DNA from: Candidatus Peregrinibacteria bacterium
GTDB taxonomy: Bacteria > Patescibacteriota > Gracilibacteria > UBA1369
Length of the DNA stretch: 64,000 nt
NCBI GenBank assembly: GCA_003153355.1
Contig: PLYH01000004.1
Coordinates: 1-64,000 of the forward strand
Direction: 5' to 3'
The notes under the pieces are model-generated. The model did no database searches, was not told the origin of the DNA, and saw only the letters and a list, made by a program, of their open reading frames with translations. Within the stretch, counting starts at the first letter, position 1. The number at the start of each line of letters is the position of its first letter. Shown here in pieces: positions 2,485 through 46,783 of the stretch. A program made the position numbers and the translations under genes.

Positions 2485-5040
2485 CTAGCTGAGGTCAATA
2501 CCGATGCGTGCTGCAATTTCCTGGTCGACAAACTCTTTTTTGCGTCCGTATTTCATACGGGAGTATTGGGTCACGATATCGCCGATCTTCTTGTTGGCGT
2601 TCTTCATGTCGTAAATGGTTTCAAGCGAGAAAGGACGGGAGGTCGTGTTGTGAATGTTTTCTTTGATGTAGGCTTTGAAGTTGGCAATGCCCAAAACGTC
2701 CTGTTCGGTAAGAACCGGGGCATATTCTTTTGCCATATATTCGGCATCATCGGCACCGACTTTAAAAGACATCATGGTACCGACGTTACCGAAGACGGCG
2801 TCGCGGATCGAAGTGTCGTTTTTCTTTTCAAGCTGTTTGATATACTGATGGGCCATGATCAGCGCCAGGTGATACTTACGAGCTTCGGAGAGAATCGAGC
2901 AGAAAGAATCAGTGGCAAAGTTCTGGAACTCATCCACGTAGAGGTAGAAATCTTTACGTTCTGATTCCGGCATATCCACACGGCTCATGGCAGCCATTTG
3001 CAGACGTGCGACCATGATAAGACCGAGCAGCTGGGTATTCAGATCACCGATTTTACCTTTTGAAAGATTGATGAGCAGGACTTTTTGCGCATCCATGCAT
3101 TCACGGAAGTTGAAGGCGGATTTGGTTTGTCCGATGACGTTACGCATAATCGAGTTCGTAATAAACGGACCGAATTTCGCCGAGAAATACGGAATCATTT
3201 CCTGACGTTCGCGTTCGCCGGTATGCGCGTATTCATGTTCCCAGAAGGAACGCACGACGGGATTTCTTACTTTACTCACTTTGTATTTCATAAATTCGTC
3301 GTCCACGAAAATGCGAGGAACATCGATAAGCGTCGCTCCTTCGTCAAGGTCTTCCATAAGAGTTAAACAAGCATTGCGGAAATAATGCTGAATGCGGGGA
3401 CCGAAGATTTCGTCGCCGAAGATTTTAATGAAAATTTCCGTTGCCTGACTGGACGCCAGATCCTGCTGTTCAGGAGTTTTTGCTTCAAGAATGTTCAGAC
3501 CCATCGGACGTTCAGTATCGGCGGGATTGAAAATGATAACGTCTTTGGCGCGTTCCTTTGGAACGAACTGCACGAGTTCTTCAATAAGATCACCGTGCGG
3601 ATCGATAACGCACAGACCGTCACCGGCGATGATGTCCTGGCGTGCCATCCAGCTTAAGAAGACGGATTTACCAGAACCTGATTTTCCGATGCAATAATGA
3701 TGCCTCGTGCGGTCCTCACGCAGGATATGAACATCACGTTTGAGACCGCGGTAGACATTGTAGCCAAGTAAAATGCCCTGGGTCGGCATATCAACAGGAG
3801 CCGGCAAATATTTATACTGAAGCCAGCGGATGTTCGGAGCCATGTTATAACGGCTGCTTGGCAGATGGAATAGAGAAGCCAGTTCTTCAGGAACCAAAAT
3901 GGATTTTTTTTCGCCGAAAATAAAGAAGCGCGTGTCGAGCAGTCTTCGCTTAAAATTAAATTTCATGACCATGTTGTTGATGAAATCCAGAAAGATAATG
4001 CGGTGAGTCTGGAACCAGTTCATGTAATTGTCGCGGAAAAGATTCAACGCCAACGCCACATCGTTGGTGATGCCTTCGGCTTTCATTTTGGTTTTTGCCG
4101 ATCCGATAATGCGTATGACTGCATCGAATCCGACCTGTCCCGCTTTTTCACCCATTTTTTTTGCAACCTCTTCTTTAGGCTGCAGCATACGTACGAAGCC
4201 TGCCTGATCCTGGTTTTCATCTTTTGTTTTCACAATCTTTTCATAACCGAAGAAAAGTCCGACGACGATACTGTTTAAGGCTCTCAATCCTGGAATATTA
4301 AACCCCTGAGGTTTTTTTCCCTTAAACAATTGCGAAGCTGTTGCTTCGGCTTTTTTATTCCATTTTTTGCTTTTGATCGGACGCAAAACGATCTGGATGA
4401 CGGCTGTTTCATTTTCTTCCAGTTTGGAGAAAATGTTCGTAAGATCGTTCATCGGATCATTTTCAATGGTCTTGTAGGTTTTTATCGGATACCAATAAGG
4501 ATTTTTTTCATAAGCGTAATAGCATTTCAGCTTGTTGCCTTTTGGCTGAATTTCGTACGGCTGTTCATACTGAATATCGGCATTGGTGTAGTAAGAGGTG
4601 ATCTGCTTTTCAACCAACGACTGGTAATATCTCGGAACCACCACAAAAAACTCAACGACCTTTTCCTGTGCCACAATTTCAAAAGATAAAAGATCAGCCT
4701 TAAAAAGAAATGTACGAAAAACGTTGCGCAAACTGAGTTCACCCAGCTCATAAAGATTGCGGTAGAGCTGTTCCATAATGGAGATTTTTTCGCGGAAATC
4801 CTTTTCATCGCTTTTTTCTTTGTCCTTCTGTGAATCTTCGCGCGGCATGGTTATTTTGAGAAAAACCAAAGATCTGTGACGCGCAACCACATAAACATAT
4901 CGGTAAAATGCAATAAAAACTTTCAAGGCTATAAAAGCCAGAACTATAATCCCAAGCGACTGCCATGGATTGGTTTCGATATAATTTACGATAGTCTGCA
5001 CCCAGTCCGGACTGTTCTGAAGAAGCTGATCGAAATTCAT
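2485..5040 (-). CDS. membrane-anchored VirD4/TraG-like conjugative-type ATPase (paralogue 1)
   Basis: The 851-residue protein has an N-terminal membrane helix (about residues 24-45), a conserved family-specific N-terminal domain (about 60-400) and a C-terminal RecA-like ATPase related to type IV secretion coupling proteins. Walker A is IGKSGSGKS at about residue 450. A Walker-B-like FYLYVDEFQNF is present, followed by TraG-type motifs such as ILSEARKYHL and MAHQYI. The start is set at the ATG at 5040 because a strong promoter lies immediately upstream; the longer frame from 5112 would run through that promoter. The whole protein is paralogous to the one at 25918-28398. No relaxase, VirB4 or pilin cluster is nearby, so conjugation is not supported. 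A role in DNA or protein export, uptake or cell contact is possible. Confidence 0.82.
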   Translation of the reverse strand: MNFDQLLQNSPDWVQTIVNYIETNPWQSLGIIVLAFIALKVFIAFYRYVYVVARHRSLVFLKITMPREDSQKDKEKSDEKDFREKISIMEQLYRNLYELGELSLRNVFRTFLFKADLLSFEIVAQEKVVEFFVVVPRYYQSLVEKQITSYYTNADIQYEQPYEIQPKGNKLKCYYAYEKNPYWYPIKTYKTIENDPMNDLTNIFSKLEENETAVIQIVLRPIKSKKWNKKAEATASQLFKGKKPQGFNIPGLRALNSIVVGLFFGYEKIVKTKDENQDQAGFVRMLQPKEEVAKKMGEKAGQVGFDAVIRIIGSAKTKMKAEGITNDVALALNLFRDNYMNWFQTHRIIFLDFINNMVMKFNFKRRLLDTRFFIFGEKKSILVPEELASLFHLPSSRYNMAPNIRWLQYKYLPAPVDMPTQGILLGYNVYRGLKRDVHILREDRTRHHYCIGKSGSGKSVFLSWMARQDIIAGDGLCVIDPHGDLIEELVQFVPKERAKDVIIFNPADTERPMGLNILEAKTPEQQDLASSQATEIFIKIFGDEIFGPRIQHYFRNACLTLMEDLDEGATLIDVPRIFVDDEFMKYKVSKVRNPVVRSFWEHEYAHTGERERQEMIPYFSAKFGPFITNSIMRNVIGQTKSAFNFRECMDAQKVLLINLSKGKIGDLNTQLLGLIMVARLQMAAMSRVDMPESERKDFYLYVDEFQNFATDSFCSILSEARKYHLALIMAHQYIKQLEKKNDTSIRDAVFGNVGTMMSFKVGADDAEYMAKEYAPVLTEQDVLGIANFKAYIKENIHNTTSRPFSLETIYDMKNANKKIGDIVTQYSRMKYGRKKEFVDQEIAARIGIDLS

Positions 5041-5068
5041 TGGATTTTGGTTTTTATTTATTCTTACT

Positions 5069-5097
5069 ATTTTAGCACAAAATCCCGGTTTTAACAA
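5069..5097 (-). promoter_or_regulatory. sigma-70-type promoter of the VirD4-like/LCP operon
   Basis: On the minus strand, TTGTTA (5092-5097) and TAAAAT (5069-5074) are separated by 17 bp. The expected transcript start lies about 20 nt before the ATG at 5040, which decides the start of that gene. Confidence 0.7.
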
Positions 5098-5166
5098 TTC
5101 AGAAAGCCGCATTCTGCACCTTGTGCATTTGAAGATTTATTTTTTGGCTATAAGGAGTTTTTGACG

Positions 5167-25917: not shown

Positions 25918-28398
25918 ATGGAAGACTTTTTTACGACATTGTTGTATGTGGCAGGAGCCGTCGTGGTTGTGTGGGCGATTTTTAAGTACGTGAAGTGGTA
26001 TATCCACCATCACAGCGACATTGAGCGCTCCATGAATATGGTGTTCCTCAAGATCCAGGTTCCAAAAAAGGAGTCCAAGGAAGATGTTGAACGCGAATCG
26101 CAGTCCATGGCGAGCGGAGCTGATTTTAAGCAGGCCGTGGGCATTGCCAGCCACATGTTCGATTCACTCCACAGCATTTATACCAAAAGTTTTACCCACT
26201 ATTTTACCGGCCAGGATTTTCTTTCCCTGGAGTACGCGGTGCTCGACGGTGAAATTCATTTTTACGTTGTTGTTCCGCGCGAACTCACAAGTCTCGTGGA
26301 AAAACAGATTACGGGTTTTTATCCTGATTGTTACGTGGAGAAAACTCAGGACTACAATATTTTTAAGCCGAATTCCCAGTACACCGGCATGTATATGCAG
26401 CTGACGAAAGATTACTGGTTTCCGATTAAGAACTTCAATCAGCTCAATTCTGATCCGATCAACAACCTGACGAACGTTCTTTCCAAACTGACGACTGAGG
26501 ATGGCGCGGCGATTCAGATCATGGTCAAACCGAAAAAGGACGGATGGCAGGAGCACGGCCGCCACGAAGCCAAAGAGATCTTCAATCAAAAGAAAGGCAA
26601 AGGACATTCTTCTTTGAATCCCCTGTCCTGGCTTTCCGCATTGTTCGATTTTTTTGTAAAAGGAGAAATCAACGAGAACAAGGGAGAACATGGCAGCGAA
26701 CGCACAACACCCCTCACGGATGAAGAGGTCAAAATGCTCGAGGAAAAGAATTCCAAGATCGGTTATGAAACGATTATCCGCGTGGTGACCGCCTCACCTT
26801 CCCATCGTGAAGCCAAGGCCAATCTGCAAAACATTAAGAGCGCTTTCGCGCAGTACAACTCCCCTGCAGCCAATGGGTTTACTTATACCAAGCACACTTC
26901 AGACAAAAAACTGATCAAGGATTTTATCTACCGTCATTTTCAGCGTCCATTGATTCAAAAGTTCAAGAGACAAAAAATGGTGCTTTCTTCCGATGAACTG
27001 GCTTCGCTGTTCCATTTGCCGAACGTGCGCTACAACAAAACTCCGAACATCGCCTGGCAGAACTATAAAATTTCTCCTCCTCCGCACAATATTCCAAAGG
27101 AAGGCATTTTGCTCGGCCATAACACCTACCGAGGCGAAACAAAGGAAATCCGCATGAAGAACGAAGACCGTTTCCGTCACTTTTACGTCATTGGTCAGAC
27201 AGGTACGGGTAAGTCTTCGATTTTCCAGGTGATGATCCGTCAGGATCTACAGTTGGGCCACGGCCTGTGCGTCGTTGATCCCCATGGATCTTTGATTGAT
27301 GACGTGATGTCGTTTATTCCCCGCAGCCGCGCCGACGACGTGATTTACTTTAATCCTGCTGATCTGGAACGTCCTTTGGGTTTGAACATCCTTGAAGGAG
27401 AAAGCTGGGAAGAAAAAGAACTGGTGGCTTTGGACGCCATGAACATCATGATTAAGTTATTTAACGAAGAGATCTTCGGTCCGCGCATTCAGGATTACTT
27501 CCGTAACGGTTGTTTGACCCTGATGTCCGCGCCGGACGGTGGTGCTTTAACAGATATCGTTCGTCTGTTTACCGATGATGATTTCCAGCGGATGCAGGTT
27601 CAGCATGTGACGAATCCGATTGTCCGCTCATTCTGGGAAAATCAGATGGCCAAGACCGGAGCCCGTGAAAAACAGGAAATGATCCCTTACTTTGCGGCCA
27701 AGTTCGGTCAGTTTGTGACGAACTCGATGATGCGTAACATTATCGGCCAGTCTAAATCTGCGTTTGATTTCTTGAAGGTGATGCAGGAAGGGAAAATCCT
27801 GCTCATGAACCTTTCCAAAGGTGAGGTCGGTGAAATCAACTCCAAGCTGCTCGGTCTTATCATTGTTTCCAAGATCCAGATGGCCGCGCTCCGCCGTCAG
27901 CGCATTCCCAAGGATGAAAGAAGGGACTTCTTCCTCTATATAGATGAATTCCAGAACTATATTACTGACAGTATCGAATCAATTCTGTCCGAAGCAAGAA
28001 AGTACCGCCTGAGTTTGAACATGGCGCATCAGTATATAGGACAGCTGGAAGGTCCTGACGGAAAATCCAGGGTAAAAGATGCCGTGTTTGGTAACGTCGG
28101 TACGATGATGTCTTATAAGATCGGCGCTCAGGATGCAGAATATTTGGCAAAGGAAATGGCTCCGGTCTTCAGCGACCAGGACCTTATTAACCTTGATAAA
28201 TTCAAAGCTGTCATGAAACTTTCCATCGATACACAGCCTAGCAGACCATTTAGCATTACTCCTGTCAATCCATACCTGGAAAAGGGAGACGACGAAGCGG
28301 CCGAAGCGTTCAAACAACTCTCACGATTGAAGTACGGACGTGACAGAGAATTCGTAGATCACGAAATCATCAGGAGAATAGGGGCGATTACGGATTAG
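25918..28398 (+). CDS. membrane-anchored VirD4/TraG-like conjugative-type ATPase (paralogue 2)
   Basis: This 826-residue protein shares the full layout of the 2485-5040 product: N-terminal membrane helix (about residues 5-25), a related N-terminal domain (MVFLKIQVPKK, HFYVVVPRELTSLVEKQI), then a coupling-protein ATPase with Walker A IGQTGTGKSS at about residue 425, VDPHGSLIDDV, FFLYIDEFQNY and SILSEARKYRLSLNMAHQYI. Long stretches align with paralogue 1, for example RIQDYFRNGCLTLM against RIQHYFRNACLTLM. The start at 25918 fits the -10 box 23 bp upstream. No other type IV secretion genes are in the window. It is probably a hexameric membrane motor with unknown cargo. Confidence 0.82.
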   Translation: MEDFFTTLLYVAGAVVVVWAIFKYVKWYIHHHSDIERSMNMVFLKIQVPKKESKEDVERESQSMASGADFKQAVGIASHMFDSLHSIYTKSFTHYFTGQDFLSLEYAVLDGEIHFYVVVPRELTSLVEKQITGFYPDCYVEKTQDYNIFKPNSQYTGMYMQLTKDYWFPIKNFNQLNSDPINNLTNVLSKLTTEDGAAIQIMVKPKKDGWQEHGRHEAKEIFNQKKGKGHSSLNPLSWLSALFDFFVKGEINENKGEHGSERTTPLTDEEVKMLEEKNSKIGYETIIRVVTASPSHREAKANLQNIKSAFAQYNSPAANGFTYTKHTSDKKLIKDFIYRHFQRPLIQKFKRQKMVLSSDELASLFHLPNVRYNKTPNIAWQNYKISPPPHNIPKEGILLGHNTYRGETKEIRMKNEDRFRHFYVIGQTGTGKSSIFQVMIRQDLQLGHGLCVVDPHGSLIDDVMSFIPRSRADDVIYFNPADLERPLGLNILEGESWEEKELVALDAMNIMIKLFNEEIFGPRIQDYFRNGCLTLMSAPDGGALTDIVRLFTDDDFQRMQVQHVTNPIVRSFWENQMAKTGAREKQEMIPYFAAKFGQFVTNSMMRNIIGQSKSAFDFLKVMQEGKILLMNLSKGEVGEINSKLLGLIIVSKIQMAALRRQRIPKDERRDFFLYIDEFQNYITDSIESILSEARKYRLSLNMAHQYIGQLEGPDGKSRVKDAVFGNVGTMMSYKIGAQDAEYLAKEMAPVFSDQDLINLDKFKAVMKLSIDTQPSRPFSITPVNPYLEKGDDEAAEAFKQLSRLKYGRDREFVDHEIIRRIGAITD

Positions 28399-28619: not shown

Positions 28620-30152
28620 ATGAAAACACAAAAACTTTTGTATGTTTTGATGTCTGCAGGTATTGCGGCCACGATGATTCCTTTCGGAGCAGCCCTGGCG
28701 GCGAACAATGAAACCCAGCAGACCGTTTCTGCACAGGGGTCGACCCAGCAAACTCAACAGCAGGGCGCGACTGACGCATTCGGGGCTCCAATAGATCCTG
28801 TTGCCCAGCCGGTTGTTGCTCAACCTGATGCTTCGGGTTTTCCTTATGAACAGACTTTTATTATCTCCGCTTACTATTCGCCGCTCGCGGGTCAAAAGAA
28901 ATATGTCACGGGATCTTATGACGGTGATATCCGTTTGAACGGCAACGGTGTTCACGGGGCTGACGGTTTGGACGTACATCCAGGCATGATCGCCGCTCCA
29001 AAAAATTATCCTTTCGGAACGAAAATGAATATTCCGGGCGTAGGGACCGTTGGCGTGCATGACCGCGGAGGCGCGATTGTGAACGCGGGTCAGCGCAATC
29101 AGTCTTATGACCGTCTGGATCTTTGGATGGGTTCTGGCGATGCCGGTCTTGAACGTGCTTTACATTGGGGAAGACGCACGGTTCAGGTGACTGTGTACGG
29201 CGTTGATCCGAATGTCCAGGAAAATGTTAATCTTGAAGGTTTCTCAGCCGCCGAAAGCGTTGCGGAAACCGTAACCGGTCAGGCTCCTAAAGTGTTCGTC
29301 CAGGATTTGAATCTTGGCAACACGAATGATGACGTCAAAAAACTCCAGGACAGTCTGAAACAGCTTGGTTATTATAGTGCGAACAGCACAGGTACCTTCG
29401 ATGATGCCACCCGCCAGGCTTTGATAAAATTCCAGATCGCAGCTGGTCTTGTAGACAGTGAAAACGACTTTGGCGCAGGCTACTTCGGTCCTCAAACCCG
29501 CAAGAGTCTTGAAGACGCTTTGAATCAAAAACAGACCCAGATCAATGATCATCTTCCGCAGACTCCTTTAAGTAAAGACGACCAGGGTGATGACGTTAAA
29601 AAACTTCAGGTAGGTTTGCAGAAACTGGGCTACGACGTACAAGTCACGGGGATTTATGACGACCAGACCGTGAACGCAATCTTAAAATTCCAGAAGGATC
29701 ATAACGTGGTCTCTTCCGATTCCGATTTTGGAGCCGGAGTGTTCGGCCCAAAGACCATGCAGGTTCTGGCGCTCAATCTTGTCGGCGTAAGTTTTGACGA
29801 CGCCAATGCCGCACAGGAAACTTCGGTCCAGCCGGTTATCGTCTTCACCCAAGATTTGAAATTGGGCGACTCCGGTGCTGATGTTACAAGACTGCAGCAG
29901 GAACTTCAGCGCATGAACTATCTGGGCATTGCTCCATCCGGTTATTACGGAGATGTTACGCAGCACGCTGTGATGAAATTCCAGGAAGCCCAGGGGCTCA
30001 TTCAATCCGAAAATGATCCGGCCGCCGGCTACTTTGGTTCCGGAACCCGCGCGAGCATTCACGCCATCATCGGTGAACGCCAGCACGTGAACGACTTGAT
30101 GTCCCAGAAAAATCCTCTGGCGAAAAAAGAAGAAGACGTGGCTTTGAAATAG
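28620..30152 (+). CDS. secreted 3D-domain protein with three peptidoglycan-binding domains
   Basis: A signal peptide (about 1-27, ending AALAAN) and a Gln-rich linker precede a 3D-type double-psi beta-barrel domain (about 70-200) with the three-Asp pattern in VGVHDRGGAI and YDRLDLWMGSGDAG. Three PG_binding_1 repeats follow (about 222-300, 318-390, 415-490), each with the DVKKLQ, GYYG and FGPQT landmarks. 3D domains occur in lytic-transglycosylase-like wall hydrolases, so this is likely a secreted wall-remodelling enzyme held on peptidoglycan. An A-rich leader precedes the ATG, with a TATACT -10-like box near 28530. It is convergent with the HD gene, 9 bp apart. Confidence 0.87.
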   Translation: MKTQKLLYVLMSAGIAATMIPFGAALAANNETQQTVSAQGSTQQTQQQGATDAFGAPIDPVAQPVVAQPDASGFPYEQTFIISAYYSPLAGQKKYVTGSYDGDIRLNGNGVHGADGLDVHPGMIAAPKNYPFGTKMNIPGVGTVGVHDRGGAIVNAGQRNQSYDRLDLWMGSGDAGLERALHWGRRTVQVTVYGVDPNVQENVNLEGFSAAESVAETVTGQAPKVFVQDLNLGNTNDDVKKLQDSLKQLGYYSANSTGTFDDATRQALIKFQIAAGLVDSENDFGAGYFGPQTRKSLEDALNQKQTQINDHLPQTPLSKDDQGDDVKKLQVGLQKLGYDVQVTGIYDDQTVNAILKFQKDHNVVSSDSDFGAGVFGPKTMQVLALNLVGVSFDDANAAQETSVQPVIVFTQDLKLGDSGADVTRLQQELQRMNYLGIAPSGYYGDVTQHAVMKFQEAQGLIQSENDPAAGYFGSGTRASIHAIIGERQHVNDLMSQKNPLAKKEEDVALK

Positions 30153-31355: not shown

Positions 31356-33326
31356 ATGCCATCAAAAGATCATCAAAAAAATATAGCCGCATGGGTTTTG
31401 GTCCTGATGTTTTTCGGTTTCGGATCTTATCTGGTCCAGAGGAACGCGACAGATTTTCAGGCAAGCGTGCTGACGACCAACCAGGCTCCTCCGTTTAACG
31501 GACTTGTTATGCCGGTGCAGCGTACGCCGATTTGGACTTCGCTCACTCCGGATGAATATAAAATGGATTATAATTCCATTCCAGCGAACAAAATGGGACC
31601 GCCTCCGGTTTATGATGCCAATACCTTAAAGACTCCGGTGGAACAATTGGGATGGAAGAGTCCGGCTGATCTTGCCATCCGCAATGCCAAAATCACCTAC
31701 AGCACTCCCTACATGGGCGACTATAAACTTGATGGTATTGAAGGAGCCGGAAGCCATTTGGCCGTAGACATTAAAGTCCCGATGTCGACGCCTGTGTTTG
31801 CCATTGGTAATGGAGTTGTTGTTACTGTTTCAAATATTACCACCGGTTTTGGAACTCATATCGTGATCCGTCATGACAACTTCCCTTCTTTTGATAATCC
31901 GAATGTCCTTACTACTTACTACTCAACCTACAACCACTTGAGCCAGGCTTTGGTGAGTGAAGGCGACGTTGTATTAAAAGGACAGCAGATCGGTTTGAGC
32001 GGCGAGACCGGCGATGCAACGACTCCTCACGTTCATTTCCAGATCGATAACGCCAGCGCGCCTTGGCATCCATACTGGCCATTTACTTATCAGGAAGCCC
32101 AGGCAGCCGGATATGATTTTACATCAGCAGTTAATGCGGGTTTCGGCAGAGACAAAGCTTTGGCCACCACCATTAATCCGGTGATGTACGTTCAAAAATA
32201 TCTGAACATGAGCGGAGTTCCTACCCCGGCTCCTGTTCCTGCGCCTGCACCTACCCCAAGTCCGACCCCTGTTACTACTCCGGCACCAACGCCTGCTCCT
32301 GCGCCTACGCCAGCACCAGAACCAACACAGCAAACTTCAACAGATAACAGCGACAGCAGCTCTCAACAGGTTGAACCTCCAGTCGTCACTCCTCCTCCGG
32401 CTCAAGTTTCCGTCAGTGATCCTGTGGTGAGTCTTGAAGTGATCACCGATAAAACTTTTGTGGTCGGTTCCGATCAAAATTTAACCGTCAAGGCGCTTGA
32501 TGCCGCCGGCAATGTCGTTCAAAATTATCAGCCGGTGAACGGTCTGAGTCTTCAGGTTGAAAACGGCGGAGCTACTTTTGCAAAACCTTTGTTCAGCGGT
32601 TCGGAAATTTCCAACGGAACGGTTCAAACCACCTTCAAAGCAACCGCGACCCAGGGGCTGCGCATTAAAGCCACTGACGGACAAATCACCGGTGAAAGTG
32701 ACGTCCTTCAGAGCAGCCTTTTTACCGACGTGAACAGTAACAGTAACGTTGCGGCCGCTTTACAGTTCCTGAAGGATCATAACGTGATCGGAGGATATCC
32801 CGACGGTTCGTTTAAACCAGACAATGTCGTTTCACGCGTTGAAGCTTTAAAATTCATTCTTCTTGGTGTCAATAAAACGCTTCAGAGTGTGGGACATTTA
32901 CCTTTTAAAGATACAAGTTCCAATGAATGGTACGGCAACTATGTTGCAACCGCCTACAATTCAAGCATTGTTGCGGGTTATCCGGATATGACATTCAAAC
33001 CTGCGCAAACCGTCAATAAAGTTGAATTCTTAAAAATGTTGCTCTTAGCCATGAAAGTGAAGGTCGATGCCAGCGTGTCTGCAGACGTGTTCACTGATGT
33101 TCCAAAAAGCGCGTGGTTCGCTCCTTATGTTCAATATGCCAAGGATAAAAACCTGATCGATTCGACCAGCTCGATGTTCAACCCTCAGGAAGGCATGACT
33201 CGCAGTGAAGTTGCTGAAATCATTTACAGGACGATCTTAATGAAAATAATCGGCCAGAACAGTTACACCGACGGCATGACTGTTTCCGGCACAGCTGCTG
33301 ATCAATTTTTCAGAACTCAAACCTAA
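31356..33326 (+). CDS. M23-family peptidase-like surface protein with three SLH domains
   Basis: An N-terminal signal anchor (about 10-28) precedes an M23/LytM domain (about 110-260) with metal motifs HLAVD near residue 133 and PHVHFQID near 225. A long Pro/Ala/Thr linker (about 288-330), an immunoglobulin-like region (about 365-450) and three SLH repeats follow (from about 458: FTDVNSNSNVAAAL, FKDTSSNEWYGNYV, FTDVPKSAWFAPYV). M23 enzymes cut peptidoglycan cross-bridges, and SLH domains bind wall polymers. The protein is therefore probably an S-layer-associated wall hydrolase. Its SLH domains imply a wall polymer that LCP-type ligases could attach. Confidence 0.87.
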   Translation: MPSKDHQKNIAAWVLVLMFFGFGSYLVQRNATDFQASVLTTNQAPPFNGLVMPVQRTPIWTSLTPDEYKMDYNSIPANKMGPPPVYDANTLKTPVEQLGWKSPADLAIRNAKITYSTPYMGDYKLDGIEGAGSHLAVDIKVPMSTPVFAIGNGVVVTVSNITTGFGTHIVIRHDNFPSFDNPNVLTTYYSTYNHLSQALVSEGDVVLKGQQIGLSGETGDATTPHVHFQIDNASAPWHPYWPFTYQEAQAAGYDFTSAVNAGFGRDKALATTINPVMYVQKYLNMSGVPTPAPVPAPAPTPSPTPVTTPAPTPAPAPTPAPEPTQQTSTDNSDSSSQQVEPPVVTPPPAQVSVSDPVVSLEVITDKTFVVGSDQNLTVKALDAAGNVVQNYQPVNGLSLQVENGGATFAKPLFSGSEISNGTVQTTFKATATQGLRIKATDGQITGESDVLQSSLFTDVNSNSNVAAALQFLKDHNVIGGYPDGSFKPDNVVSRVEALKFILLGVNKTLQSVGHLPFKDTSSNEWYGNYVATAYNSSIVAGYPDMTFKPAQTVNKVEFLKMLLLAMKVKVDASVSADVFTDVPKSAWFAPYVQYAKDKNLIDSTSSMFNPQEGMTRSEVAEIIYRTILMKIIGQNSYTDGMTVSGTAADQFFRTQT

Positions 33327-40924: not shown

Positions 40925-40946
40925 TTTTCTAGATAGAATTATAAAA

Positions 40947-40972
40947 AGCCCTGCATTGTGCGGGGCTTTTTT
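40947..40972 (+). terminator. intrinsic terminator of rpsA
   Basis: The 9-bp stem AGCCCTGCA/TGCGGGGCT (one wobble) with loop TTG is followed by six T. Confidence 0.88.
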
Positions 40973-40993: not shown

Positions 40994-43900
40994 TCAAGCG
41001 GATCTTGCAAGTCCGACGCCGTCATGAGGGCCGCTTGCTCCAGCGTTTTTGCCGTGAGTCTGGAATTGTGCGAGATATGTTTCGCCGTTGAGTTCGAAGG
41101 TGAAGGTGTCTCCTTTTTCAGCACCTTTCCGGACAAAATATGACTTGGCAATCCAGGATATCGTTGATGCCATAGGGCTTACACCTTTCGGGGTAAAGAA
41201 ATTGGGAGGATATTTGAACGGCTGCAAATGGCCGGAGCTTAGATTTATCGGCACCCGGAATTGTTCATTATTCCTGGTAAAATCAATGTAGTCGCCGTTT
41301 GAAGTTTGGACGAATTTTGCATGTCCTGATGAAAGAACTTGGCCAACTTCCCTCTGAGTGTAATCAAATTCATCGACAACTTGTTCTCCGGCGGTTTCTG
41401 GAAGCTTTGGTTGAGCATTCGGTATATTGGCTGGTATCATGTCAGGCTGTTGAGGAATAGGACCGCTTTGGATATAAAGGTCCGCCCCCGGATGGTCACC
41501 ATGCCAGGCTAATTTGGCGAGGTATTTTACTCCTTCATACTCAAAAGGCATTTCAGTTCCCTGTGGGTTGTTCCATTGCAACATGGTGTAGAGCATTGCG
41601 TAATCCATGACTGCAATGAGCCCAGGATTTCCCTGGTAAATGGTATAGCCCTCAGGTCTCCCGGTAAGGTTCGGCGTTTGGTAGGACAGATCAACTTTCA
41701 AGCGGTATTCATTGCCATTGAAGGTCATTGATGCCTCGTCTCCGTTTGTTCCTTTAAAGTATGTAATGGTTCCTCCCGGTGCACCCTGGGAAATTTTATA
41801 TTCAACTGAGTCAAATTGGACCATTTCATTGGTGTCGATGCTTTTTGCTTTTTGCGGATTCGGCAGAAGAGTGTCCGTTTGTTGGACGCTTGGCTTATTG
41901 CCCGGCTGATCGTTGCCGCTGAAGGAGTGAACCAACTTTGGTATATTTGAAACAAGTTCAGCCTGTGGTTGCGGTTGAGGAGCTTGCTGCTCTTTAAAAT
42001 TCGGGCCGGGGATGTTGGACCAGGCCTCTTTTACATCCGCGGGAAGGTTGTACATCACCGAAATGTCCATCACACCGTTTCGATTTAAAAGCGGTGCGAG
42101 ATCAGGATTACTCAATACATCTTCAGCACGCATCGGTTTGCCGTCGACAATCATATTTTTGCTGATGAGACGTCCGCCCTGGCTGTAATCCCAATAATCA
42201 AACGGATGGAAACCTCCGGTGTTGTTTGGTTGGACGCGCGACGAATTCTCAAAACGTCCGCCATAAATCGAAAGCCAGTTCGGATGCTGCATCAGGTTCG
42301 TGGCATCATTGTTGCTATAGATGACATCCTTTTTTTCACCGGCAATCAGTCCCTGCGGATTATATTTCTGAATCATGTCGTTTTGTCCGCGGTAAAAAGC
42401 CGGTGTTGCCATGTAAGGCTGGCTCTTTCCGTCAAACGGAACACCGATATTTTGGGCGATTTGTCCGTATGCAAAGAAAGGAACGATCGTTGCATTCGCT
42501 TCAATATCATCGACGAGCTTTTCCGTTGGAAGAATGCAGTCGTATTTTTCAGCGACAAATTTTGCGATAAGACCGTTCATCGGGACACGGACAAAATCGT
42601 CATTCGTCCCGACGGAAAGGTAATCCGGCATGACTTTGATGGTTGCGGTATGCCCGTTGGCTTCCACTGTTACTTCCTTAAACTGGAACAGGAACGGCGG
42701 AATGTTGCCGCGGGAAAGTTCTTCGACAACGCGCTGCTGTTCTCTCCCCCATTTTTGGATTGTTGATAATCCGGGAGTTTTGTCGATTTCATCAAGTTCC
42801 GCCATAAACTGGCTTCCGGTCGGAGCATCTTTCGGACGTTCGGGAATTTTAAGACCTTCAGGGGAAGGGGCAGCACTGTCTGAAGCAACCTCCTGATTCG
42901 GTTTGTTTGCGCTTTGGTCTTTGATGATTTCGCCCTGGAGGAGTCTTGAAAGTTTTCCGGGATTCGGGTGAACATGATCGCTGCCGACGCGGTATTCGGG
43001 TGACATTGCATCAGGATCATTTGGGTCTGCAACCAACTCATCGATGCGGATAACTTTTCTTCCGGAATTGATGATCTGCTGGTTGATCCATTTTCTGTTT
43101 TCGTTCACTTCGTCGTATTTGGATCGGTAGGTTGAAAATGTGTGGCCTTTGAATGGAGGGATCGTGCAGGCGTAAACCGTCATGCCAAGGTCTTCAAGAA
43201 TTTTCCAGATCTGCTGGATGCGGTCAAAAATAGCTTCTTTGGTGAAACGTCCGTCGCCGATACTGCCAATGTCATTGGTGCCGATCAGAACAACGCCATT
43301 TCCGCCTTTAAACATATCAAGATTGAAATCCACCGAAACTTTACTGTCGGTCGGTTTGCCGTCGCGAAGGTTTTGGAGCTGATCAAGCAGCCACATTGAA
43401 GTCATACCGCCTTTAGCAAAAGTTCTGCGTTCACCGGCGACGTCCATCGATGCGCCTTTCACGCTCGCGAAAATCGAATCGCCCAAAAAGAGCGTGTTGC
43501 CCGTGATTTTTCCCGGAACGAGTTCGCGTTTTTCCGGAGAAACAAATGACGCGGGTTTGTAACTTGGAGCCACTTTGGCGTTCGCGCTGAATCTTGGAGC
43601 TTCGAATGGAACACCGCCGCCGCCGGTATATTTTGGAGTCGCATTTGAACCACCGCCTCCCGTGTATTTTGGAGTTACACTCGGCATCACGCTGAGAGTT
43701 TGGCCTCCAACGTCGCCGCTGCCGCTGAATCCCCCGCCTCCGCCGAAACTTCTCACTTTAGCGGGTGCGCCCGGCAGTGCCGGAACCAAAGGGGCATTGT
43801 CCGCAACTGCACTTGGAGGTAATGCCGGCACGGCACCGGGCGTCATCGACTGAATTTTTGCGACCGCCTCTTTCATTTTATCGTTGTATTGATAAACATT

Positions 43901-45022
43901 TCCAGACGTAGGCATCGTTGGAAACCCAAGCTCTGCCAGTTTTGGATCGCTTAATGCAATGGGTTTTCCGTCCAGATAGGCCATTGGCATGATCAATTGA
44001 ATGTTCTGGCTGTAATCGTCGTGATCCTGTCCATGATGACCGCCGCTTAAAGGCTGGACTCTGTTGCCGTCTTCATAGAAACCTCCGTAGATTTCCAGTC
44101 TTCCTGGACCGGTGACCCCCGGTTCAGGCTGAATAACATGTTTGTAATAACCATAGATCGGTTTGTTCAGATCAACGCCGTGATCTTTCGCCCATTCGCG
44201 ATAGGTTTTATTGTGAGTTTCTATAAACTCCGGACTTCTCATTTTGGCCGCATCTTCTGCGGAAAAAACTTGTGGTTTAAAAGGAATGAATTGAGAATTA
44301 TTTTTGGCCTGTTCGTACATAAAATCCACCATCGACTTATTCGGAAGAACGGTGCCCGTTGCATCCGCAATAGCCTGGGCCAGCGGGCCGTTCATGGGAA
44401 ATTCGATCGGATCTTTGTCCGTTCCAAGCTGGAAGCCGCTCGGTGCGGCGAGCATCTCAAATTTTCTTCCGTCTTTTTCAACGGTGATTTTTTGAAATGT
44501 GCGGAAATGATCCGGAACGTTTCCCTTGGCGAGTTCGTCCAGAATAAGCGTGCGTTTTTCTTCGTCGCTTTTGCAGTTTTTAAAATCCTCACGCAGCTGG
44601 TCCGGTGTTCTTGCGTCTTTGGCGCGTTCGGGAATGTTCGGTCCTTCCTTGAGTTTTTCTATTTCAGTTTCATTGGCTTTTTTTGGACCTTTTCTTTCAG
44701 CATCTTCTTCTTTCGGCTTTGCTCCCGGCTGTCCAGGAAGCGGACCGAGTTTCGCCCTGAGTGCTGCGAGTTTTTCTTTGGAATCCTCAACGACATCTTT
44801 GCGTTCTTCATGAATCTGCTTGGCTTTATCCAGGGCCTCTTTACTTTCTTTGTCGGATTTTTCATCACCGAGATCCGCGCCGATCATGGAAATACTGACC
44901 GGTTTGGGTTTTTCGCCTTTTTGTCCGTCTGGTTGTTCTTTATCAAAACACAAGCGGTTCTGGCCGAATATTGGTTCGGATTCCAGAAATAAACAAGTTT
45001 TCAAGTGAAGGAGATGTGCCAT
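40994..45022 (-). CDS. giant multidomain protein with central SGNH hydrolase domain
   Basis: The 1342-residue protein has a charged N-terminal coiled-coil region (about 50-125), repeat A (about 127-392), a Gly/Pro-rich linker (about 400-500), an SGNH/GDSL hydrolase (about 505-700), repeat B homologous to A (about 722-1005), a Pro/Gln linker, and two related C-terminal units (about 1040-1180 and 1195-1342). Hydrolase blocks are visible: FLGDSI (Ser near 515), IGTNDIG (near 582) and DHVHPN (near 681), so the Ser-Asp-His site looks intact. Repeats A and B share IPERxKDAxT, ITVEKDGRK/VTVEANGHT, FPMNGPLA/VPMNGLIA, IYGGFYEDGNRVQP/IYGGRFENSSRVQP and DDYSQ/WDYSQ. No signal peptide is visible. It follows the alpha/beta hydrolase gene by 3 bp. 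Confidence 0.75.
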   Translation of the reverse strand: MAHLLHLKTCLFLESEPIFGQNRLCFDKEQPDGQKGEKPKPVSISMIGADLGDEKSDKESKEALDKAKQIHEERKDVVEDSKEKLAALRAKLGPLPGQPGAKPKEEDAERKGPKKANETEIEKLKEGPNIPERAKDARTPDQLREDFKNCKSDEEKRTLILDELAKGNVPDHFRTFQKITVEKDGRKFEMLAAPSGFQLGTDKDPIEFPMNGPLAQAIADATGTVLPNKSMVDFMYEQAKNNSQFIPFKPQVFSAEDAAKMRSPEFIETHNKTYREWAKDHGVDLNKPIYGYYKHVIQPEPGVTGPGRLEIYGGFYEDGNRVQPLSGGHHGQDHDDYSQNIQLIMPMAYLDGKPIALSDPKLAELGFPTMPTSGNVYQYNDKMKEAVAKIQSMTPGAVPALPPSAVADNAPLVPALPGAPAKVRSFGGGGGFSGSGDVGGQTLSVMPSVTPKYTGGGGSNATPKYTGGGGVPFEAPRFSANAKVAPSYKPASFVSPEKRELVPGKITGNTLFLGDSIFASVKGASMDVAGERRTFAKGGMTSMWLLDQLQNLRDGKPTDSKVSVDFNLDMFKGGNGVVLIGTNDIGSIGDGRFTKEAIFDRIQQIWKILEDLGMTVYACTIPPFKGHTFSTYRSKYDEVNENRKWINQQIINSGRKVIRIDELVADPNDPDAMSPEYRVGSDHVHPNPGKLSRLLQGEIIKDQSANKPNQEVASDSAAPSPEGLKIPERPKDAPTGSQFMAELDEIDKTPGLSTIQKWGREQQRVVEELSRGNIPPFLFQFKEVTVEANGHTATIKVMPDYLSVGTNDDFVRVPMNGLIAKFVAEKYDCILPTEKLVDDIEANATIVPFFAYGQIAQNIGVPFDGKSQPYMATPAFYRGQNDMIQKYNPQGLIAGEKKDVIYSNNDATNLMQHPNWLSIYGGRFENSSRVQPNNTGGFHPFDYWDYSQGGRLISKNMIVDGKPMRAEDVLSNPDLAPLLNRNGVMDISVMYNLPADVKEAWSNIPGPNFKEQQAPQPQPQAELVSNIPKLVHSFSGNDQPGNKPSVQQTDTLLPNPQKAKSIDTNEMVQFDSVEYKISQGAPGGTITYFKGTNGDEASMTFNGNEYRLKVDLSYQTPNLTGRPEGYTIYQGNPGLIAVMDYAMLYTMLQWNNPQGTEMPFEYEGVKYLAKLAWHGDHPGADLYIQSGPIPQQPDMIPANIPNAQPKLPETAGEQVVDEFDYTQREVGQVLSSGHAKFVQTSNGDYIDFTRNNEQFRVPINLSSGHLQPFKYPPNFFTPKGVSPMASTISWIAKSYFVRKGAEKGDTFTFELNGETYLAQFQTHGKNAGASGPHDGVGLARSA

Positions 45023-45025
45023 AAG

Positions 45026-46744
45026 TTAAGCTACTGAAGCTGTTGCGTAATCGCCGAAATAAGCCGCTTTGCAATTTCCATGAACAACGCCTTTGCGGTG
45101 AACATACCGGATAACAACACTCTGGTCGGCGTTTGCCCAGACCTCATCGGGATCGTTCGGATCTTCGGGTTGGACCCGTTCCAATCCAAGTGATGCAATC
45201 ATTTCCCGATTTGCGCCTTCAAGATAGGAGTTTGTCCAGAGGCTGCGAAGTTTTTTCCCCGGCTGTTTCGCCCATTCCATAAAGTCCCGGTGGGAACCGC
45301 CGTAACAGGACTCCAAAAGTCCGATGTCTGTTATACGGTCAGCAAACTGATCCTGTTGCAAAATCCTTTGAACGGCCTGATAACCGCCGCTATGCGTTTC
45401 AAGACTAATTTTGCTGTTTGAAATTCCGGTTTTCTGATCAACCATTGCCATGAGCGAACTGAAATAATCCGGTGAACTAAAATTTTTCCAGCTTCCGATC
45501 CGATTTTCCGGAACCACGAGGATGACCGGGTCGCCGTTCTCACGCATTTTTTGAACGTCCCGGGTAAGGAAACTCAGGTTTTCATCAATGTTTCCGCCGT
45601 TCCCATGAAAGTAGAAAACGATACGGGGCGGTTTTTTGTATTGTTCAATGTTCAACGGAACATCCACATAAACGCGTTCGGTTCCCAATTTAAAGTACTC
45701 GATATTTGCCTGCGGATTCTCAACTTTCTGAAGAGGTTCCGGGGTTTTGGCTTCCGGAATTTTATCGTCCGGTTTGGGAGGTTTGACTTCAACCCTCCTT
45801 CCATTAACCGTTTCGATTCTGTAGCCCGTTTTAGCACTGATATTTGGACCCATCTCCGTTGGAGCTGCTTCGTTTTTGCGCCAGATGGTTCCTTTCATAT
45901 CGGTGTGGGTCTGCTGTTCTTTTGCATCCTGGGCCTTGGCTTCGTCGCTTCCTTCGGCAACGGTTTCGAGCACGCTGATGGTGTAGCCGCTGAAAACCGG
46001 GATGTAGCCCCGCGCGTCGTAATAGCCCACGCGGCCGTTCACGATCTGGCGTACGCCAGTGCGCTGCTGGCCGTTCGGGTCCATGACTAAAATCTTACTG
46101 ACAGTAGGTGGAAGAATATCTCCCGCCCCTACGAAGCTTTCAAATTTGTCTTTGCCTTGGAGGTCGACTTTGAAAGTTAAACCTGCTCCTTTTTTTTCGC
46201 CCAGAAACATGCGGGACATTTTGGCTTTGTCCCAGCCGCCCTGAAGATTGTAAATGTCTTCGGCTTCGGCCTTTTGAAGATCGCTGTTGATTTCCGTTTC
46301 CGCTGCCTGGCGGATTTTTTCGTCTTTGTCGTATTTCTTGCCGACTTCGTTCCAGTATCCTCCGAGATTTTTTTTGTCCGCGTCGGTTTTGTTGTCGGTT
46401 TTTTCTTTGAGCCATACGGCTTTCTGGATGACGTCGCCTTTTTCGTTCTTCCAGACCACGCCGTCCTTTTCTTTGGTGGCGGTGAGTTTTTCATTCTGGA
46501 AAGTATAGTCAGCTTTCTGGCCTTCCGTCGTAAGTCCGCGTTCAATCGCGATCATTTCTTTCATCGGAGTTTCAATGCCGATTTCAAGACTAAGGCCGGC
46601 GAGCCGGGCGCTGGTATCCACCACCTCCACTTTTGTTTCCTTTTTTTCGGTTTCAACCTGCGGCTTTTCCGGAGGGGTTTGATAGACCCGGCGGGACTGT
46701 TGGAATCCGCCTTGTTCGGGGTAGTATTTTTGTTTAGAGTGCAT
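45026..46744 (-). CDS. large protein with C-terminal alpha/beta-hydrolase domain
   Basis: The N-terminal 330 residues of this 572-residue protein match nothing I know: a charged part (about 1-60), a region with WKNEKGDVIQKAVWLKEK and LGGYWNEVGKKY, and a segment containing SKILVMDPNGQQRTGVRQIV. The C-terminal part (about 345-570) is an alpha/beta hydrolase: oxyanion-type FYFHGNGGN near 380, nucleophile elbow THSGG with Ser near 452, and a candidate His in KGVVHGNC near 555. There is no signal peptide. It is the first gene of an operon with the giant SGNH protein, so the two hydrolases probably act in one process. Substrate unknown; esterase or lipase-like chemistry is an inference. Confidence 0.72.
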   Translation of the reverse strand: MHSKQKYYPEQGGFQQSRRVYQTPPEKPQVETEKKETKVEVVDTSARLAGLSLEIGIETPMKEMIAIERGLTTEGQKADYTFQNEKLTATKEKDGVVWKNEKGDVIQKAVWLKEKTDNKTDADKKNLGGYWNEVGKKYDKDEKIRQAAETEINSDLQKAEAEDIYNLQGGWDKAKMSRMFLGEKKGAGLTFKVDLQGKDKFESFVGAGDILPPTVSKILVMDPNGQQRTGVRQIVNGRVGYYDARGYIPVFSGYTISVLETVAEGSDEAKAQDAKEQQTHTDMKGTIWRKNEAAPTEMGPNISAKTGYRIETVNGRRVEVKPPKPDDKIPEAKTPEPLQKVENPQANIEYFKLGTERVYVDVPLNIEQYKKPPRIVFYFHGNGGNIDENLSFLTRDVQKMRENGDPVILVVPENRIGSWKNFSSPDYFSSLMAMVDQKTGISNSKISLETHSGGYQAVQRILQQDQFADRITDIGLLESCYGGSHRDFMEWAKQPGKKLRSLWTNSYLEGANREMIASLGLERVQPEDPNDPDEVWANADQSVVIRYVHRKGVVHGNCKAAYFGDYATASVA

Positions 46745-46751
46745 ACAGTGC

Positions 46752-46783
46752 TTGGAAGGTTTTTAAATCTTATTATTATAGCA
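46752..46783. promoter_or_regulatory. overlapping divergent promoters of ylxR and the hydrolase operon
   Basis: On plus, TTGGAA (46752-46757), a 16-bp spacer and TATTAT (46774-46779) drive ylxR. On minus, the extended -10 TGCTATAAT (46775-46783) drives the hydrolase operon. The two -10 boxes overlap almost fully, so the promoters should compete. Confidence 0.55.

Follow-up and report, generated by a model that had tools for sequence, protein, structure and literature searches.

A gene pair for multi-domain putative esterases in a Peregrinibacteria genome, possibly directed at the cell wall

What is the function of two adjoining genes that encode large proteins in a tiny and probably host-dependent bacterium? 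The genes lie in a stretch of 64,000 nucleotides, referred to as a whole as "the window", which comprises positions 1 to 64,000 of contig PLYH01000004.1 from a Candidatus Peregrinibacteria bacterium (assembly GCA_003153355.1). Both genes, and all parts of them located below, are on the minus strand. P0002 (572 amino acids; 45026..46744) has a disordered N-terminal region, a middle domain and a C-terminal alpha/beta hydrolase, and P0001 (1342 amino acids; 40994..45022) has the order domain A, SGNH hydrolase, domain B and two C-terminal units. A preliminary description had reported two open reading frames of these lengths, 3 bases apart; the frames are real, their coordinates and the gap are borne out, with P0001 as the downstream gene, and the observation on the genes is sound.

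The reading that we favour, with about even confidence, is that the pair forms an esterase system of two multi-domain enzymes, which takes O-acyl groups, most simply O-acetyl groups, off a cell-wall glycan, the likeliest being peptidoglycan or a polymer attached to it. The structure of the genes, their domains and domain partners, the co-conservation and the absence of a Sec-type N-terminus are established directly. We infer the catalytic activity, the O-acyl substrate, the location outside the membrane and the choice between the cell's own wall and that of a partner from the evidence below.

Domains of the two proteins

The SGNH hydrolase of P0001 (residues 497-700; 42923..43534) is the only domain in either protein that Pfam recognises, passing PF13472 with 5.8e-9 and 37.1 bits against a cut-off of 32.9. 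The GDS, GTND and DxxH motifs that had been noted before are all present, as the blocks GDS, G, GxND (GTND) and DxxH (SDHVH), with Ser516, Asp682 and His685. In an alignment of 11 rows, one sequence (L018) ends before the last block and another (L012) lacks the Asp of that block. When the SGNH profile was compared with the PDB, SGNH/GDSL proteins were matched at 2.6e-18 and PatB at 6e-14 (8tlb). P0001 is thus similar to Ape and PatB in its fold, in its GDS, N and DxxH blocks and in the presence of PatB among the matches of its profile, and it would also resemble them in acting on wall glycan. It differs from both by its two additional domains, predicted to resemble formylglycine-generating enzymes (FGE-like), and by its C-terminal units. 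Furthermore, Ape is described as secreted to the periplasm (PMC6174289), whereas P0001 has no Sec-type N-terminus.

Domain A (residues 130-365; 43928..44635) and domain B (residues 726-985; 42068..42847), the latter with a predicted fold of the C-type-lectin/FGE kind, flank the hydrolase, and two smaller units follow at the C-terminus (residues 1060-1195, 41438..41845; and residues 1213-1342, 40997..41386). The preliminary description had taken the two flanking copies of about 260 residues to be related, and likewise the two terminal units. This is confirmed by 31% identity between A and B (E 3.8e-31, blastp, one-against-one) and 23% identity between the units (E 7e-10). A unit related to the second of these also ends the SGNH proteins of relatives (2.6e-9, with a profile of six relatives' tails). 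Domain A matches the domain A/B profile at 7.1e-63, a profile that includes both window copies as rows. A recent duplication as the origin of A and B was rejected: in a 60-row tree, A groups with copies of the fused type (G005, G009 and G011; 100/98) and B with L039 (97/93), the fine placement being unsure with the very long branches of G005_L003, G006_L008 and G011_L009.

Domains A and B belong to one unnamed family, which is old and widespread. In a scan of genome contigs of 84,980 species, for which five aligned copies from Patescibacteria, window domain B first, served as the query, 108 pattern stretches yielded 82 confirmed copies and 80 loci kept; the scan was seeded with two conserved stretches and the best 80 were retained, so that distant copies are undercounted. 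Hosts include Planctomycetota, Gemmatimonadota, Riflebacteria, Sumerlaeota, Armatimonadota and Acidobacteria and, among others, Oligoflexia, Sorangium, Bacteroidales, four Patescibacteria and one Micrarchaeota record (domain A at L115:10001-10768), the last of which may reflect transfer or mis-binning. The 260-residue domain had been called novel; it is indeed unnamed, but with 80 loci kept it is widespread and not special to this pair.

An alignment of 56 rows has 11 invariant columns, including K180, Q213, H221, D227, Y228 and S229 in domain-B numbering, and the invariant residues are kept in both window copies. The predicted structure of domain B has a mean predicted local distance difference test score (pLDDT) of 90.1 and a predicted template modelling score of 0.89. 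Foldseek gave no PDB or viral match for it at E<=0.001. In a second structural search, the first 24 rows (Z 5.4-7.1) were formylglycine-generating enzymes, sulfoxide synthases and Mtd, names that we take to belong to one C-type-lectin/FGE superfamily, and the next row was at 2.5; the tool advises Z 8, and the domain B rows fall below this. Alignment by hhalign against 26 FGE sequences joined one stretch, with the LPT motif in the expected register, at a probability of 1.4% and E 0.037, and FGE membership by sequence is therefore not supported. Because the LPT motif is in register yet the sequence profiles are not significant, an FGE/C-type-lectin-like fold is likely, but not proven, for domain A/B. 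The family may thus resemble FGE and C-type lectins (PF03781; Mtd), going by its structural matches and the LPT motif, and differs in having other invariant residues and no Pfam match; PF03781 was matched neither in P0001 nor elsewhere in the genome. No cysteine occurs among the invariant or near-invariant columns of the 56 rows, and the pair of active-site cysteines of FGE is absent.

The alpha/beta hydrolase of P0002 (residues 336-558; 45071..45739) has both motifs reported for it earlier, HGNGG and THSGG, and Ser452 within THSGG is clear as the nucleophile from the alignment. The model of the whole protein has a pLDDT of 67.8, with low confidence at the N-terminus and values of mostly 73-93 in the hydrolase part. 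The best Foldseek rows for the latter were feruloyl and acetylxylan esterases and S-formylglutathione hydrolases (E 4.9e-8), and a structural comparison aligned 195 residues with Z 15.4 and a root-mean-square deviation of 3.0. The model thus points to an alpha/beta-hydrolase fold like that of carbohydrate esterase family 1 (CE1). The likeness to CE1-type esterases and esterase D (feruloyl, acetylxylan) is in the alpha/beta fold of residues 333-569; the differences are the THSGG in place of GxSxG, the attached middle domain and the lack of any sequence match in Pfam, NCBIfam or PDB.

Association with wall enzymes and the substrate of the pair

The middle domain of P0002 (residues 107-290; 45875..46426, a profile match) occurs throughout the order, in 37 of 59 genomes at E<=1e-5. 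Pfam matches in 29 full proteins that carry it were SLT (5), M15_4 (4), glucosaminidase (3), GDSL (2) and related models; no family of another kind was found in these proteins, many of which have no Pfam match at all. OSK, matched in one of the 29, is presumably an SGNH-fold domain. In single scans of 11 proteins, peptidoglycan-hydrolase matches were found in eight, in one case (L025) through SLT_4 below the cut-off. This L025 protein, from G054, joins the middle domain, an SLT-like stretch and an SGNH domain, and G024, G025 and G036 have the middle domain and SGNH in one open frame. The only other middle-domain protein found in the source genome (L203:229-2154; G000:C6, ~51.7-52.2 kb) has 642 amino acids with M15_4 and SLT matches; it begins MKFVWK and has no hydrophobic N-terminus. 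Against the PDB the middle-domain profile found nothing credible, and the P0002 model, folded without relatives for this part, gives it no firm fold. Taken together, these partners suggest that the middle domain is a marker of wall enzymes in this order. Domain A/B also has such partners, being fused to a GH25 lysozyme in L053 (2.6e-27) and to PG_binding_1 in L047 (3.5e-19).

Under the reading that we favour, P0002 would supply a carbohydrate-esterase-like alpha/beta hydrolase attached to the domain that marks wall enzymes, and P0001 would supply an SGNH esterase placed between two C-type-lectin/FGE-like domains, which probably bind (or also act on) glycan, as its small C-terminal units may do too. 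Removal of O-acyl groups would open the glycan to lytic transglycosylases and to the other wall hydrolases that share the middle domain. The esterase Ape is described as stripping off O-acetyl groups that would otherwise obstruct lytic transglycosylases (PMC6174289). The substrate could be the cell's own wall, as the genome encodes four transpeptidase matches of the penicillin-binding type. Predation on the wall of a partner has been described for Vampirococcus, a relative within the same broader clade (PMC8080830). Deacylation of a surface polymer, which had been proposed earlier, is the best reading of the wall-enzyme partner domains and the esterase folds, although domain A/B is not specific to the pair. 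A host polymer, the other proposal made at that time, is a conjecture; the organism has transpeptidases of its own.

Several observations weigh against this reading. The nucleophile elbow of the P0002 hydrolase is THSGG, so that the GxSxG pattern is not present (relatives from other phyla have GHSGG, SHSGG, CHSGG or AHSGG there), Glu478 occupies a column where relatives carry Asp, and the catalytic His is ambiguous, His549 being indicated by the alignment with a second His close by. The SGNH fold occurs in transferases (PatB) and lipases as well as in esterases. Neither protein has a Sec-type N-terminus: the best 11-residue Kyte-Doolittle means, 1.35 for P0002 and 1.24 for P0001, are under the thresholds of 2.0-2.2 of a simple hydrophobicity scan, as expected from the earlier statement that no signal peptide is visible. 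A location outside the membrane is therefore suggested by relatives. The two types of hydrolase occur together at the locus in six of 12 relatives of the same GTDB family (SGNH in nine), and G004, G006 and G010 gave no SGNH or alpha/beta match in the searches made. Finally, no MBOAT O-acetyltransferase was found in the genome, though there is one Acyl_transf_3 protein, and it is thus uncertain whether the cell O-acetylates its own wall.

The last point also bears on the idea that the SGNH domain works as a PatB/OatA-like O-acyltransferase, adding acyl groups to the cell's own wall. The match of PatB structures to the SGNH profile, the Acyl_transf_3 protein and the cell's own transpeptidases would fit such a role; but the MBOAT partner is missing, inspection by eye showed no acyltransferase gene next to the locus, either in the window or at the related loci viewed, and the second, unrelated hydrolase fold would be left unexplained. 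We consider this role very unlikely.

The locus and its relatives

Are the parts of the pair conserved together, as the preliminary description implied? At the 80 domain A/B loci, a P0002-type hydrolase was found in the same open reading frame in 34 cases and in a neighbouring gene in five, and was not found in the available DNA of 41, by a profile of which four of the nine rows derive from these same loci. The unnamed proteins that combine this hydrolase and domain A in one frame (Planctomycetota, Gemmatimonadota, Armatimonadota and others) share these two domains with the pair, but mostly have Sec-type N-termini; in the window the hydrolase and domain A are split over two genes, and SGNH, the middle domain and the C-terminal units are added.

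The same count raises the question of whether the chemistry is right and the polymer another one, namely a surface or environmental polysaccharide such as a capsule, an exopolysaccharide or a plant or algal glycan. Outside Patescibacteria, the commonest partner of domain A/B is this P0002-type hydrolase and no known peptidoglycan enzyme, and the structures nearest to that of the hydrolase belong to enzymes for plant-type glycan esters; the wall is favoured instead by the middle domain and by the PG_binding_1 and GH25 partners. We regard such a polymer as a possible but somewhat unlikely substrate, and retain wall glycan as the preferred one.

Within the GTDB family, the arrangement is variable. 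In G005, G007, G009 and G011 a single gene for 841 amino acids (cut by a contig end) to 1200 amino acids encodes hydrolase, domain A and SGNH; in G008 and G012 the SGNH and hydrolase genes adjoin; a G003 gene (L039) combines domain B with SGNH; and in G001 and G002 the SGNH gene is preceded by one for a small protein. Small proteins of this kind upstream of the SGNH gene, in three relatives, have 130-173 amino acids as called (L189:11246-11659, L190:10990-11511 and L194:16088-16480). The position of the locus is the same in all eight relatives with flanks (G001, G002, G005, G007, G008, G009, G011 and G012): it adjoins the S1 protein, and ClpB-like genes are found to one side and/or YlxR-UvrD or IF-2 to the other; some contigs give one side only, and neighbours were named by eye. 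As the chromosomal place is the same and the splits between genes differ, the module was inherited in place and its parts were rearranged between genes. Co-conservation of the parts is thus borne out by the 80 loci and by the relatives. Proteins with domain A only are encoded elsewhere on the chromosome in G006, G008 and G001 (L196, L198 and L199), in the first two beside a gene for 780-790 amino acids whose product begins with a hydrophobic stretch.

In the window, the neighbours on both sides are on the opposite strand, and the pair is therefore a unit of its own. The dedicated extended -10 promoter proposed for it is there as an exact element, TGCTATAAT (46775..46783, minus strand), 30 bases ahead of the first ATG, that of P0002. 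The pattern TGNTATAAT has six places in the window against 1.1 expected, and extended -10 promoters seem common here; a promoter scan found no promoter with a -35 partner at the pair's -10 site on the same strand. A 13-pair stem with A and T runs on either side (40943..40971, no strand) lies between P0001 and the S1-protein gene that converges on it and is likely a terminator shared by the two, in a terminator scan that overall was not above chance (10 sites versus 10.0 in shuffles).

The pair had been called undescribed, and this stands: a placement of both proteins in one described family was looked for in the libraries and none was found. NCBIfam and PADLOC recognised nothing in either protein, and a known defence system was rejected for want of a PADLOC match. 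A phage origin was also rejected, since PHROG matches were weak (lipase-like or unnamed families, to the SGNH part), BFVD gave none for domain B at E<=0.001, and the chromosomal neighbours are conserved. No published account of these domains was found in the literature searched, a scope that left most subscription papers outside. The pair does not belong to a single described family, nor is it isolated: an unnamed domain of many phyla, two esterase folds that are already known and a wall-enzyme domain specific to the order are combined in a new way.

N-terminal sequences and possible export

The lack of Sec-type signals extends beyond the pair. Among 87 domain A/B or hydrolase open reading frames of the 80-locus set, 58 have a Sec-type N-terminal segment as judged by a simple rule (start codon, basic residue and hydrophobic run), several of the 29 negative frames being cut or unsure in their start. 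Such segments are usual for domain A/B outside Patescibacteria and were found in none of the four Patescibacteria rows. Similarly, none of the 29 middle-domain proteins reaches the hydrophobicity threshold in its first 60 residues, compared with 56 of 149 genes of 400-800 amino acids sampled from two of the middle-domain genomes; the 29 proteins are related and are not independent events. This lack across the middle-domain set is the most surprising point of the analysis.

Taken literally, the missing signal peptides would make the pair cytoplasmic hydrolases of a lipid, a thioester or a storage polymer, and the structural matches of P0002 do include polyhydroxybutyrate depolymerase and S-formylglutathione hydrolase. 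The wall-enzyme partner domains and the 58 Sec-type segments found elsewhere are at odds with this, and we think it decidedly unlikely. Wall-directed esterases, the reading that we favour, would instead call for another way out of the cell.

A shared N-terminal motif, R-x-[VIC]-[FY], is seen in P0002 as RRVY (residues 18-21; 46682..46693) and in P0001 as RLCF (residues 23-26; 44945..44956). It occurs in 13 of 15 locus proteins, two of the 13 being near-identical, at most 41 residues from the start used; the small upstream proteins have it as NRLIFQN, KRYVYET and NRLIYQN. The alpha/beta protein of G012 lacks it, and L039 has RNLVF, which does not fit the strict form; the count did not include G008's alpha/beta protein, whose start is unsure, or G012's small protein, which a contig end truncates. 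The motif is not evident by eye in most other middle-domain proteins. As a genome-wide export signal it is not supported, as its rate in the first 45 residues of other genes from two samples (18 of 678) is about that inside proteins (13 of 561 controls). Under a stricter pattern, the rate is 5 of 322 in G000, a figure that includes both window genes, against 1 of 287 in the control, and 4 of 309 in G001, against 5 of 272. The motif could have been inherited from a common ancestral N-terminus. At the level of sequence, the missing hydrophobic N-termini and the shared motif would fit export by a non-Sec route.

Three proteins of the VirD4/TraG type are encoded in the genome. Two are VirD4/TrwB-like type IV coupling proteins in the window (2488-5112, minus strand; and 25918-28395, plus strand; TrwB_AAD_bind 3.6e-12 and T4SS-DNA_transf 1.8e-10), and the third match is on contig C7. 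Close to the second lie, on the plus strand, a gene for a protein with three PG_binding_1 stretches (28620-30149) and one for a peptidase of the M23 family that bears three SLH stretches (31356-33323), whose products are, as far as these matches indicate, further envelope enzymes. Type IV machinery and abundant VirD4-like proteins with unsettled substrates have been described for Patescibacteria (PMC12102498, PMC12857230). A contractile injection device as the exporter was set aside with no Phage_sheath_1 match in the genome, a search that may miss divergent sheaths.

It may be speculated that: the order has a Sec-independent set of wall enzymes, with the middle domain (GAGDILPP type) and/or R-x-[VIC]-[FY] as the tag; a VirD4-type ATPase would pass them to a type IV machine and into or onto a partner cell; and the SGNH and CE1-like esterases would there unmask an O-acylated wall for lytic enzymes. 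As a whole, this scheme seems rather unlikely to us. What the pair does offer is an unnamed domain, A/B, that spans many phyla and is tied to glycan esterases, and a middle domain that may serve as a marker for a Sec-less set of wall enzymes in Patescibacteria of the Peregrinibacteria type. These proteins would be candidates for the cargo of the widespread patescibacterial type IV machinery, a question left open in print (PMC12102498).

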